NCBI RefSeq assembly: GCF_000719775.1
Contig: NZ_JOHR01000010.1
Coordinates: 182,953-246,952, forward strand
Reading direction: 5' to 3'
Source of the DNA: Streptomyces sp. NRRL F-5135
Lineage (GTDB): Bacteria > Actinomycetota > Actinomycetes > Streptomycetales > Streptomycetaceae
DNA length: 64,000 nucleotides
Shown here: positions 32,268 to 50,807 of the stretch, one piece after another
Numbering within the stretch: position 1 is the stretch's first letter
Layout of the letters: every line of letters begins with the position of its first letter
Notes under the pieces: model-generated
The model's input: only the letters and a program-made list of their open reading frames with translations
Told to the model about the DNA's origin: nothing
Databases searched by the model: none
Program-made: the position numbers and the translations under genes

Positions 32268-32309
32268 ATGCGCACCGAAATTCTCGTACTTGGACAGCGC
32301 GTCGGCTGA
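32268..32309 (+). CDS. ilvB leader peptide (attenuator)
   Basis: ATG 32268 opens a 13-residue peptide, [13 protein letters not shown], with consecutive Ile-Leu-Val-Leu codons (32280-32291) and a TGA at 32307. This is the expected design of a branched-chain amino acid attenuator: ribosomes stalling at these codons would change folding of the RNA ahead of the terminator at 32351-32384. GGAGG lies 12 nt upstream, but the promoter position suggests a leaderless start. An in-frame ATG at 32256 would add MVSP. AGCGCGTCGG inside the leader (32296-32305) is perfectly complementary to CCGACGCGCT (32341-32350), next to the terminator. Actinobacterial ilvB leaders have been predicted before. Confidence 0.85.
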
Positions 32310-32350
32310 AGCAGAGCCCATGCCCGCTCTGTGGACCGTACCGACGCGCT

Positions 32351-32384
32351 CCCCTCGCTTGCCACTTGGCACGAGGGGTTTTTT
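32351..32384 (+). terminator. ilvB attenuator terminator
   Basis: CCCCTCG (32351-32357) pairs with CGAGGGG (32372-32378), with an inner TGCC/GGCA stem, followed by six T (32379-32384). A U tract is unusual for this GC-rich genome and marks an intrinsic terminator 57 bp before ilvB. A separate hairpin CAGAGC/GCTCTG (32312-32331) lies between the leader stop and the terminator. Confidence 0.9.
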
Positions 32385-47495: not shown

Positions 47496-48659
47496 ATGAC
47501 CACGACGACGCCCACGGCCACGCCCGCCACGGCGGCCGCCTCGCCCGGCTCGCCCGCGGCGACCACGCCCGCGGCGGCCCCCGCGATCGAGCTGAAGCCC
47601 TCCGCGCACCCGCTGTCCGCCGCGGAGCGGGAGGCGATCCTGGCCGATCCGGGCTTCGGCCGGCACTTCACCGACCACATGGTGACCATCCGGTGGACGG
47701 AGGGGCGCGGCTGGCACGACGCCGAACTCGTCCCCTACGGTCCGCTGTCGATCGACCCGGCCAACATGACCCTGCACTACGCGCAGGAGATCTTCGAGGG
47801 CCTCAAGGCGTACCGCCGCCCCGACGGCTCGGTCGCCACCTTCCGCCCGGACGCGAACGCGCGCCGGTTCCGGAGCTCGGCCCGTCGGCTCGCCATGCCG
47901 GAGCTGCCCGAGGAACTGTTCATCGCGGCCTGTGACGCGCTGGTCCAGCAGGACAAGGACTGGGTGCCGCCGCACGGTGGCGAGGAGTCGCTCTACCTGC
48001 GCCCGTTCATGTTCGCGACCGAGGTCGGCCTAGGGGTCCGCCCGGCGAACGCATACCTGTTCATGGTCATCGCCTCGCCCGCCGGGGCGTACTTCCCCGG
48101 CGGGGTCAAGCCGGTCTCGGTCTGGCTCTCGGAGAACTACGTCCGCGCCGTTCCCGGCGGCATGGGCTTCGCCAAGACCGGCGGCAACTACGCGGCGTCC
48201 CTGCTCGCCCAGGCCGAGGCGGCGGAGAAGGGCTGCGACCAGGTGGTCTGGCTGGACGCGCTGGAGCACCGCTGGGTCGAGGAGATGGGCGGGATGAATC
48301 TGTACTTCGTGTACGGGGACCGCATCGTCACCCCCGAGCTGACCGGCTCCCTGCTGGCGGGGGTCACGCGTGACTCCCTGCTGAAGCTGGCGGGCGACCT
48401 GGGCTACACCTCGGAGGAGGGCCGCGTCTCCACCGAACAGTGGCGCCGCGACACGGAGAACGGCACGCTCACCGAGGTCTTCGCCTGTGGCACGGCGGCG
48501 GTGATCACCCCGGTCGGGCTGGTCAAGACGGCGAACGGCGAGTGGACCCAGTCGGGCGGGCGGCCGGGCGAGGTCACGATGAAGCTGCGCAAGGCCCTGC
48601 TGGACATCCAGACGGGCGCGGTGGCGGACGAGCACGGCTGGATGCACGAACTGGGCTGA
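47496..48659 (+). CDS. ilvE: Branched-chain amino acid aminotransferase
   Basis: The 387-residue PLP enzyme (fold type IV) carries out the last step of Val/Leu/Ile synthesis and the first of their breakdown. Features are the aromatic substrate loop [29 protein letters not shown], the PLP Lys in [13 protein letters not shown], and [15 protein letters not shown], a class-IV signature. Residues 1-30 are an Ala/Thr/Pro low-complexity extension ([20 protein letters not shown]). ATG 47496 follows GAAGGACGAG. Possible -10 sites are GATAAT (47398-47403) and TAGTAA (about 47442). A hairpin at 48724-48748 ends the unit. Confidence 0.96.
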
Positions 48660-48723
48660 GGCGCGGGGCCTCGCGGGGCGTCCTGGTTTCCGGGCCGGTC
48701 CCACCGGGCTCGATGGGGCGACT

Positions 48724-48748
48724 GGGCCCGGTGGGGGCCACCGGGCCC
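48724..48748 (+). terminator. ilvE terminator
   Basis: GGGCCCGGTGG pairs perfectly with CCACCGGGCCC around a 3-nt loop. Confidence 0.7.
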
Positions 48749-48944
48749 GCGACCCGCCGGGGCGCGGGTCCCGGGCCCCGGGCCGGGACGCCCGGTGCGG
48801 GGCCCGGGCGATCGAGCGCTCCCCGCGGGTCTCGTAGCGCCCCGGCCCCAGGGGCCCCCTGCGGCACCTCACCCGGAGGGACCAGTTCCGCTCGTATCGT
48901 GAGACGCCTCTTCCTCCTCGCGCCGGGCATGCGAAAATCGGCCC

Positions 48945-48995
48945 GTGCTCTCGCTCGCCATGATTATCGGCAGCAAGCGCGCCGGTCCGCAGTGA
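48945..48995 (+). CDS. Putative cimA leader peptide (attenuator)
   Basis: A short frame from GTG 48945 encodes MLSLAMIIGSKRAGPQ, stop TGA 48993-48995; an internal ATG at 48960 gives MIIGSKRAGPQ. Two Leu (CTC) and two consecutive Ile codons (ATT ATC, 48963-48968) precede the cimA terminator by about 80 nt. A -10-like GAAAAT (48933-48938) ends 7 nt before the GTG, so the peptide would be leaderless. A hairpin CCGTAC/GTACGG (49001-49017) and then the T-tract terminator (49050-49075) follow, the same order as at ilvB. The product of cimA leads to isoleucine, so Ile-responsive attenuation fits. Evidence is positional; no expression data are available to me. Confidence 0.6.
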   Translation: MLSLAMIIGSKRAGPQ

Positions 48996-49049
48996 CCGCC
49001 CCGTACCACCCGTACGGCGTGGCCACCGTGCCCCAGACCCGCGCGCAGA

Positions 49050-49075
49050 CCTCTCGCACCCGCGAGGGGTTTTTT
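49050..49075 (+). terminator. cimA attenuator terminator
   Basis: CCTCTCGC (49050-49057) pairs with GCGAGGGG (49062-49069) with one G-U, followed by six T (49070-49075). The GCGAGGGGTTTTTT end is nearly the same as at the ilvB attenuator. It lies 97 bp before cimA and far from any upstream stop codon other than the leader; the 513-bp gap (48660-49172) holds no other gene. Confidence 0.85.
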
Positions 49076-49172
49076 CGTTTTCCGGCCCCCATCCCGGGCG
49101 GAACGCGGCGGCGCGCGATGATGGGGGCAAGTGGAGCCAGACATTCCACTCGACAGGAGCAGGACGGACACC

Positions 49173-50807
49173 ATGACCACTGAGTCCCCCGAGTCCACGG
49201 GAACCGACGACCGGTTCCGTGTCGACGACAGCTTCCACGTCTTCGACACGACCCTGCGCGACGGCGCGCAGCGCGAGGGCATCAACCTGACGGTCGCCGA
49301 CAAGCTGGCCATCGCGCGGCACCTGGACGGCTTCGGCGTGGGCTTCATCGAGGGCGGCTGGCCGGGTGCCAATCCGCGGGACACCGAGTTCTTCGCCCGC
49401 GCCCAGCAGGAGATCGACTTCCGGCACGCCCAGCTCGTCGCCTTCGGCTCCACCCGTCGCCCCGGCGCCAAGGCCTCGGAGGACCCGCAGGTCAAGGCGC
49501 TGGTCGAGTCCGGCGCGCCGGTGGTGACGCTGGTCGCCAAGTCCCATGACCGCCATGTCGAGCTGGCGCTGCGCACCACCCTCGACGAGAACGTGGCGAT
49601 GGTCCGCGACACCGTCTCCTACCTCCGCGAGCAGGGCAGACGCGTCTTCGTCGACTGCGAGCACTTCTTCGACGGCTACCGAGCCAATCCGGAGTACGCC
49701 AAGTCCGTCGTACGGGCCGCCACCGAGGCCGGCGCCGATGTGGTGGTCCTCTGTGACACCAACGGCGGCATGCTGCCGGCGCAGATCCAGGCCGTCGTCT
49801 CCACCGTGCTCGCCGACACCGGCGCCCGGCTCGGTGTCCACGCCCAGGACGACACCGGCTGCGCCGTCGCCAACACCCTCGCCGCCGTGGACGCGGGCGC
49901 CACCCATGTCCAGTGCACCGCCAACGGCTACGGCGAGCGCGTCGGCAACGCCAACCTCTTCCCGGTCGTCGCCGCGCTGGAGCTGAAGTACGGCAAGCGG
50001 GTCCTGCCGCCCGGCGCGCTCGCCGAGATGACCCGGATCTCGCACGCGATCGCCGAGATCGTCAATCTGGCGCCCTCCACGCATCAGCCGTACGTGGGAG
50101 TTTCCGCCTTCGCCCACAAGGGCGGCCTGCACGCCTCCGCGATCAAGGTCGACCCGGACCTGTACCAGCACATCGAGCCCGAGCTGGTCGGCAACAGCAT
50201 GCGGATGCTCGTCTCCGACATGGCGGGCCGCGCCTCCGTCGAGCTCAAGGGCAAGGAGCTGGGCATCGACCTGGGCGGCGACCGCGACCTGGTCGGCCGG
50301 GTCGTCAGCCGGGTCAAGGAGCGCGAGCTCGAGGGCTACTCGTACGAGGCCGCCGACGCGTCCTTCGAGCTGATGCTGCGCGAGGAGGTGGAGGGCCGGC
50401 CGCGCGGCTACTTCCGTACGGAGTCCTGGCGCGCGATCGTCGAGGACCGTCCGGACGGCTCGCACGCCAACGAGGCGACCGTGAAGCTGTGGGCCAAGGG
50501 CGAGCGCATCGTCGCCACGGCCGAGGGCAACGGCCCGGTCAACGCGCTGGACCGGGCCATGCGGTCCGGACTGGAGCGGATCTACCCGCAGCTGGCCAAG
50601 CTGGAGCTGGTCGACTACAAGGTCCGCATCCTGGAGGGCCGGCACGGCACCGGATCCACCACCCGGGTGCTGATCACCACGGCGGACGGGGCGGGCGACT
50701 GGGCCACGGTGGGGGTGGCGGACAACGTCATCGCGGCGTCCTGGCAGGCGCTTCAGGACGCGTACACCTACGGCCTGCTGAGGGCCGGCGTGGAACCGGC
50801 CGAGTAG
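49173..50807 (+). CDS. cimA: Citramalate synthase
   Basis: The 544-residue protein belongs to the isopropylmalate/citramalate synthase family (TIGR00977 type), which condenses pyruvate and acetyl-CoA to citramalate for threonine-independent isoleucine synthesis. The start DTTLRDGAQREGINLTVADK, GFIEGGWPGANPRD, VDCEHFFDGYRANPEY, the metal/active-site HAQDDTGCAVANTLAA and THVQCTANGYGERVGNANL are visible. A C-terminal LeuA-type allosteric domain spans about 410-530. Assignment over 2-isopropylmalate synthase rests on the REGINLTV and GGWPGAN signatures. ATG 49173 is preferred; GTG 49131 is an alternative. The upstream leader and terminator suggest attenuation. Confidence 0.9.
   Translation: MTTESPESTGTDDRFRVDDSFHVFDTTLRDGAQREGINLTVADKLAIARHLDGFGVGFIEGGWPGANPRDTEFFARAQQEIDFRHAQLVAFGSTRRPGAKASEDPQVKALVESGAPVVTLVAKSHDRHVELALRTTLDENVAMVRDTVSYLREQGRRVFVDCEHFFDGYRANPEYAKSVVRAATEAGADVVVLCDTNGGMLPAQIQAVVSTVLADTGARLGVHAQDDTGCAVANTLAAVDAGATHVQCTANGYGERVGNANLFPVVAALELKYGKRVLPPGALAEMTRISHAIAEIVNLAPSTHQPYVGVSAFAHKGGLHASAIKVDPDLYQHIEPELVGNSMRMLVSDMAGRASVELKGKELGIDLGGDRDLVGRVVSRVKERELEGYSYEAADASFELMLREEVEGRPRGYFRTESWRAIVEDRPDGSHANEATVKLWAKGERIVATAEGNGPVNALDRAMRSGLERIYPQLAKLELVDYKVRILEGRHGTGSTTRVLITTADGAGDWATVGVADNVIAASWQALQDAYTYGLLRAGVEPAE

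Follow-up and report, generated by a model that had tools for sequence, protein, structure and literature searches.

A conserved leader with tandem isoleucine codons upstream of cimA, a putative ribosome-mediated transcription attenuator in Streptomyces and related actinobacteria

Results

Layout of the region between ilvE and cimA

The citramalate synthase gene cimA occupies positions 49173..50807 on the plus strand of the window (the whole 64-kb stretch of DNA that was analysed), and its product scores 645.5 bits against the curated citramalate synthase model TIGR00977 (cut-off 450), in agreement with the gene assignment of an earlier interpretation made from the letters alone (hereafter the sequence-only reading). 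In S. coelicolor the corresponding locus tag is presumably SCO5529. The gene on the 5' side is ilvE (47496-48659), and between the two genes lies a leader, also on the plus strand, of which cimA is the putative regulated gene. The leader opens with the -10-like hexamer GAAAAT (48933..48938), a presumed promoter element that has an extended -10 look owing to the TG at 48930-48931. It is followed, 6 nt from its end, by a short open reading frame (48945..48995) with a GTG start, the product MLSLAMIIGSKRAGPQ and a TGA stop at 48993-48995, the transcript of which is predicted to be leaderless. The sequence-only reading had offered GTG 48945 or ATG 48960 as the start; the GTG is favoured since it stands 6 nt after the hexamer, a spacing common to 219 of the 258 leaders detected in this study, in which the hexamer itself is most often CAGACT (125/258).

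Within the frame two tandem Ile codons, ATT ATC (48963..48968), are the candidate sensor codons. Fourteen nucleotides past the start of the ATT codon begins strand A of the proposed switch helix (GCGCGCCGGTC, 48977..48987), which was delimited by folding and alignment and lies within the end of the frame. Its partner, strand D (GACCCGCGCGC, 49036..49046), is placed by folding 48 nt after A, has one conserved C x C mismatch against A and ends exactly where the terminator starts. The inner arm enclosed by the two strands (48988..49030 in the minimum free energy fold) is variable in sequence and length among the leaders; in the window it contains a hairpin at 49001-49006/49012-49017, the small hairpin noted earlier, which according to the folding forms the tip of the larger A:D arm. 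The intrinsic terminator (49047..49075), predicted from sequence and folding, comprises a stem of 11 pairs (49047-49057/49062-49072), a loop at 49058-49061 and a T run at 49070-49075. It is the sole terminator-like site on both strands of 48400-49600 (one found, against a mean of 0.2 in shuffles), and the order of elements described earlier for 48945-49075 was confirmed in the sequence. Farther downstream, between the terminator and the ribosome site of cimA, the motif GTGGAGCC was seen at 49131-49138, within a predicted hairpin in the window; among the 202 loci of the same family, 110 carry it 3' of the terminator, most commonly 55-61 nt downstream.

The terminator end GAGGGGTTTTT has two occurrences in the 64-kb window, at 32373 and 49064 (mean of 0.00 in shuffles), the former belonging to a leader of ilvB (32268..32384, plus strand). 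The likeness between the two leaders, which had been noticed before from the order of elements and this terminator end, is real and goes deeper, since the ilvB leader follows the same A/D/terminator plan, with its frame at 32268-32309, A at 32296-32305, D at 32341-32350 and the terminator at 32351-32378 followed by a T run.

Occurrence of the leader upstream of cimA genes

Regions upstream of cimA were collected from 80 contigs (78 labelled Streptomyces; L042 and L077 otherwise) and from family- and class-level genome samples. The match of the 80 contigs placed them in the family of the window, and their species may recur among the other sampled genomes; the resulting 202 family loci count one locus twice, as the window and as L081, and they yielded 191 distinct whole leaders, or 183 if counted from the start codon on, while 56 distinct leaders came from other families. 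The class sample does not take in G192, in which cimA lies at the edge of a contig, and two of its genomes (G133 and G140) are late additions. The detector applied to these regions looks for a start codon together with a -10-like element, for an Ile codon in the same frame that precedes one strand of a helix by 5-20 nt, and for the other strand of that helix beside a terminator.

The element was found upstream of cimA in 202/202 family loci, which represent 191 distinct leaders, and in 56/81 other loci of the class, together in 258 of 283 regions; both late additions carry it too (2/2), which brings the class figure to 58/83. The remaining 25 of these 83 loci, in which the cimA element was not detected, include 7/7 of family f18 and 7/7 of family f25, cimA itself being present in both families; an ilvB leader was detected in three f18 genomes (L287, L293, L297). 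Four of the five listed cimA paralogues in the window's family, which are 59-63% identical to the cimA of the window, were examined and had no such leader (the fifth, in G034, lay outside this check). The detector had no match in the reverse complements of the same 283 regions (0/283), matched 4 of 1415 Markov shuffles, and found two matches, scoring 10.4 and 12.6, when run over the 824,859 bases of neighbouring sequence; on the minus strand of the window it gave one chance match, scoring 13.1. Scores were at least 14.0 in 202/202 family loci and in 53 of the 56 loci of other families; the three other accepted non-family leaders score 13.1-13.4, which is not above the best chance match (13.1). 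The element is thus commoner than chance and is conserved in most of the related genomes examined.

Sensor codons, frame and peptide tail

Tandem Ile codons are present in 174/191 distinct family leaders and in 48/56 distinct leaders of other families. When the detector was run for each amino acid in turn over the 81 non-family loci, tandem Ile was found in 48 and the next best, tandem Val, in 5, so that the leader residue is Ile and not another amino acid. The first Ile codon (Ile1) of the family leaders is ATT in 186/191 and ATC in 5/191; in the coding sequence of cimA (1,560 nt in each of the 80 contigs) 1466 of 1472 Ile codons are ATC and 6 are ATT. Two Ile codons are the usual number, but the second position is ATG (Met) in 11/191 family leaders, and 17/191 hold one Ile in all, which does not suit a simple picture.

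In 252 of the 253 detected loci the Ile core shares its frame with the start that the -10-like element defines, and apart from the single out-of-frame locus the distances from start to Ile differ by whole codons; this count covers loci accepted by the detector, which itself demands an in-frame start and which lost no locus in the family and 25 of 81 outside it. The conservation of the Ile frame among relatives, which the sequence-only reading had named as a test of its proposal, was accordingly seen across the family and in most of the class sample.

The peptide beyond the Ile codons behaves differently. Leaders whose A-strand RNA is identical translate it in three different frames (133, 16 and 6 leaders, respectively), and all retain the first Ile codon; the tails are GSRRAGPQ-like in the first group and GSSAPVRS-like (e.g. 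GSSAPVRSGH) in the second, and 5 of the 6 members of the third stop immediately after IIG. Selection accordingly keeps the Ile codon and the RNA, and not the peptide tail. Outside the family, 24 of the 56 distinct leaders encode just 8 residues (e.g. MTYSLIIS, MQSALIIT), and the stop codon of these short leaders sits directly before A. The stop is TAG in 38/56 distinct non-family leaders as against TGA in 172/183 family leaders. It was also observed in non-family leaders (L224, L231, L125, L131 and others) that the base just outside A:D is mostly a G opposite an A.

Geometry and covariation of helix A:D

Strand A follows the first Ile codon at a distance of 11-15 nt in 191/191 family leaders and in 51/56 others, and no nucleotide separates D from the terminator in 179/191 and 37/56, respectively. 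Other dimensions vary widely: relative to the start of A, the stop codon may end as early as 1 nt ahead of it or as late as 38 nt past it, and the loop between A and D measures 3 to 76 nt over the 258 leaders.

Covariation was assessed in two alignments. The family alignment (A1) holds 39 loci and the window, after hand exclusion of 9 of 48 leaders, mostly divergent ones (L175, L178, L188, L191, L200, L202, L208, L216, L219); the alignment of other families (A2) holds 32 of 44 selected leaders (L114, L130, L227, L234, L242, L253, L256, L261, L262, L264, L270 and L272 being excluded by hand). In A1 the ten counted A:D pairs all form in 40/40 leaders, and one of them is G-C in 31 and A-U in 9. 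None of 500 shuffles attained the covariation score or the number of cells with two-sided changes, whereas the number of pairs with changes on both sides (2) was reached by 35/500 and the number of pair types by 421/500. In A2 the stems of A:D and the terminator have 20 pairs, of which 11 are changed on both sides (6 of 10 in A:D), and 93.1% of the cells are paired (88.4% in A:D alone) against at most 54.3% in slid versions; the cells and the covariation score were again reached by 0/500 shuffles, the number of pair types by 155/500. Three A:D pairs are frequently open in A2, in 13, 11 and 8 of the 32 leaders. When A and D were exchanged between leaders, pairing dropped from 0.94 to 0.56, figures that are biased upward as the helices had been picked by the detector. 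On these alignments helix A:D covaries. The C x C mismatch at pair 7 of A:D is kept in 170/175 distinct family leaders; such a mismatch is also present in leader L120 (family f20), at pair 6.

Computed ribosome states

Leaders were folded under a ribosome mask ending 13 nt from the first nucleotide in the A site, an assumed value in line with the about 10 nt reported to be protected downstream of the A site (PMC4824070). With the ribosome at Ile1, the mean probability of A:D was 0.89 in the family and 0.77 in the others, and with the ribosome at the stop codon it was 0.00. The probability of the terminator hardly followed: 0.97 at Ile1 and 0.93 at the stop in the family, 0.90 and 0.89 in the others. 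Since the terminator is predicted in both ribosome states, antitermination is left unexplained by base pairing alone. A:D and the terminator stem share no nucleotide in 235 of 239 leaders (183/183 in the family, 52/56 in the others), two of the four exceptions (L262 and L272) being wrongly picked helices, and outward extension of A:D amounts to 0 bp in 233/239.

Before the 3' arm of the terminator is made, its 5' arm is paired to a mean of 0.07 in the family and 0.25 in the others in the stalled state, and to 0.55 and 0.43, respectively, with the ribosome at the stop; in the latter state pairing exceeds 0.5 in 133/183 family leaders and 20/56 others, with a median gain of 2.7 kcal/mol compared with -17.7 for the terminator. 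The same method applied to the thr, trp and leu leaders of E. coli as controls gave 5' arm pairing of 0.55-0.71 for a stall at the first control codon or at a middle one, and of 0.01-0.03 for a ribosome at the stop; for stalls at the last control codon the values were 0.05 (last Leu of leuL) and 0.45 (last Thr of thrL). The cimA leaders therefore go in the opposite direction to the three E. coli leaders, which pair the terminator 5' arm when the ribosome is stalled.

Six of the 56 non-family leaders (L225, L227, L242, L262, L264, L272) had terminator probabilities below 0.7 at Ile1. Refolding traced this to a wrong register of the detector, with bulges in the stems and, for L262 and L272, an incorrect choice of A and D, and a terminator hairpin beside the A:D arm was then predicted in both states. 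Two further pairings were considered and rejected. An alternative antiterminator, in which the terminator 5' arm pairs with upstream RNA in the stalled state, exceeded one half in 0/183 family leaders and 1/56 others, and the second pairing, between the CTCTCG of the frame and the 3' arm of the terminator, lacks conservation.

The same plan upstream of ilvB and other branched-chain genes

Among 29 ilvB upstream regions of the class sample (30 loci less L284, which could not be anchored) 22 showed the same plan, the window's included, by a relaxed detector run without a separate control. A covariance model trained only on the 32 non-family cimA leaders recovered, in the genome of the window, the cimA leader with an E-value of 2.2e-14 and the ilvB leader weakly (0.138), together with one further site (0.289), and at E 0.01 it matched 57 of 198 genomes of the phylum, these E-values being rough and calculated per genome.

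Among the matches listed, twenty loci belong to other classes. Eleven of them have ilvB downstream, at up to 0.65 kb; one has cimA, with the leader MSASIIIIA; one has leuA, with the leader MSQNLLLT; two have leuS, with MAAALLLSPPR and, before a gene just under the leuS cut-off, MRWNLLLR; two have leuB, with Val and Ile codons in the leader instead of Leu; and for one no gene was identified downstream. The Leu-Leu-Leu versions stand in L325, L327 and L340, on the same RNA frame before leuA and the two leuS genes. Matches were also seen before isocitrate lyase and prephenate dehydratase (L333 and L344), in which no leader was detected and which may be chance or real. The relaxed detector found a leader in 12/20 of these loci, and several of the remaining 8, located before ilvB, have by eye a VLIT- or VLIP-like frame end ahead of the A strand. 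That the sensor codons mostly match the downstream gene is a strong sign that the leader frame is a reused regulatory part.

Discussion

The leader upstream of cimA is best read as an isoleucine-specific, ribosome-mediated transcription attenuator, an interpretation drawn from conservation and from computed folding, to which we assign a probability of roughly 0.8. When charged tRNA-Ile is sufficient, the translating ribosome would reach the stop codon and cover A, so that no A:D could form and transcription would end near 49075. In isoleucine shortage the ribosome would stall at the Ile codons and leave A free, A:D would form and the polymerase would read through; cimA is thus probably turned up under isoleucine shortage. 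As A:D shares no bases with the terminator, we infer that its effect is steric: A:D and the stalled ribosome at its foot would press on the base of the terminator and keep its lowest pairs open at the exit channel of the RNA polymerase. The exit channel would have no room for a helix that lies flush with the base of the hairpin. With A:D folded, the RNA path between the terminator base and the A site of a ribosome stalled at Ile1 would measure 11-15 nt, and A:D would in this manner bring the stalled ribosome to the terminator. Repression of a terminator by a ribosome near its base has a precedent in E. coli: in the excerpts consulted of the work of Li et al. (PMC4824070), a stop codon moved to 5 bp before terminator tR2 lowered the efficiency from about 90% to under 10%, and full folding, as the authors argue, is possible once the A site and the hairpin base are separated by at least 10-15 nt of free RNA. 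Several observations weigh against the attenuator reading: the terminator is predicted in both ribosome states, its 5' arm is paired more at the stop than under stalling, two Ile codons are usually all that a leader has, 25 of 83 class loci outside the family lack a detected element, and the codon changes reported for the S. coelicolor ilvB leader left its regulation unaltered.

The same computed states can be turned round, such that A:D would favour the terminator, for the reason that free D pairs weakly with the terminator 5' arm when A is covered. The partial pairing that this arm shows at the stop codon ahead of 3' arm synthesis (mean 0.55, above one half in 133/183, in the family; 0.43 and 20/56 in the others) speaks for such a reversed polarity, but the pairing is worth a median of merely 2.7 kcal/mol against -17.7 for the terminator, and cimA would be switched on when isoleucine is plentiful, hence we regard it as improbable. 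Quite improbable, in our judgement, is that the terminator merely ends the transcription of ilvE, with the cimA promoter further down and the short frame incidental. A U-tract terminator does lie between ilvE and cimA; conserved along with it, however, and in distant families too, are the Ile codons, the covarying A:D and a -10-like element that in most cases ends 6 nt short of an in-frame start.

The frame could also encode a functional small protein, with the RNA structure of secondary importance, and a frame of this kind does occur in 202/202 family loci. Yet the same RNA past the Ile codons is read in three frames, giving unrelated tails or an immediate stop, and 24 of the 56 distinct non-family leaders have only 8 residues, which makes this very improbable. 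Least credible of all is direct sensing of isoleucine by a T-box or a metabolite-binding riboswitch: although T-boxes have been reported before ileS in several Actinobacteria (PMC1262725, in part), no Rfam family, T-box included, reached its gathering score in the window, the only matches at the site being two sub-threshold ones to unrelated families, and the translated frame is conserved.

The attenuator that we favour shares with the classical trp type a frame with codons of the end product, a U-tract terminator between frame and gene and, by computation, an upstream helix decided by the position of the ribosome (A:D 0.89/0.77 at Ile1 versus 0.00 at the stop). What it does not share is an antiterminator that has an RNA segment in common with the terminator, so that the two exclude each other by base pairing. 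Since the switch helix does not overlap the terminator, the cimA leader is not a textbook trp-type switch. On this evidence the sequence-only reading was right on what the element is and largely right on how it works, the switch differing from the textbook type in the respect tested.

Closer counterparts are found among actinobacteria, for which the comparisons below draw on excerpts of the cited papers. The Corynebacterium ilvB-II/ilvBNC attenuator (PMC10272879, PMC11857589) likewise has a branched-chain upstream frame, a switch hairpin whose base adjoins that of the terminator, and control codons near the switch strand. Its frame in C. glutamicum ilvBNC begins one nucleotide from the transcript start; the cimA leaders possess the branched-chain codons, and their transcript start would follow from the -10 spacing. 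The Corynebacterium hairpins reportedly share and compete for a boundary GCC, whereas the cimA leaders have no shared nucleotide in 235/239, and they also differ in sensing Ile alone and in the gene, cimA. In the Streptomyces ilvL attenuator (MRTRILVLGKRVG, PMC8079986, Table 4) a frame termed leaderless is followed by a terminator, and the ilvB leaders of the window and of L286 have A in the frame end and D directly against the terminator, as in cimA; ilvL differs in having mixed Ile, Leu and Val codons rather than Ile-Ile and in the sequence of A and D. The M. tuberculosis ilvB1 attenuator (PMC13236596) also has a short branched-chain upstream frame, abundant terminated RNA of about 120 nt, and a response reportedly abolished by codon replacement, but unlike cimA it concerns ilvB1, uses LVVI codons and has a mutually exclusive terminator and anti-terminator.

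No attenuator of cimA was found described in the open-licence literature searched, at least in the sections consulted, including those of PMC1262725 and PMC8079986, which agrees with the earlier suspicion that it might be undescribed. The excerpts of PMC1262725 (Seliverstov et al. 2005) describe ilvB leaders and a LEU element of leuA, a conserved pseudoknot upstream; the eight leader peptides and attenuators tabulated for S. lividans in the part of PMC8079986 at hand do not include cimA; and neither citramalate nor Streptomyces occurs in the consulted main text of Naville and Gautheret (PMC2965389). The Ile attenuator of cimA thus seems to be widely conserved and apparently undescribed.

A bolder extension would be that the Actinomycetota possess a phylum-wide attenuator chassis without base-pair competition, in which A:D loops out the RNA, a ribosome parked 11-15 nt from the terminator base blocks the hairpin, and the sensor is a swappable codon cassette (Ile-Ile for cimA, Leu-Leu-Leu for leuA and leuS, mixed for ilvB) on the same RNA frame. 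We put this forward tentatively and consider it rather doubtful at present.

If the reading proposed here is true, most of the sampled actinobacteria that carry cimA have an added feedback loop on isoleucine synthesis via citramalate. The citramalate route also supplies building blocks in antibiotic producers. Moreover, an open puzzle is sharpened: the branched-chain leaders of actinobacteria resemble attenuators, but the ilvB leader of S. coelicolor reportedly did not act like one after codon changes, as mutation of its codons had no effect on regulation (Craster 1999, as cited in the consulted part of PMC1262725). A switch helix that touches the terminator and does not overlap it, and whose distances to sensor codon and terminator are nearly fixed, offers a concrete possible reason why these leaders may work differently.
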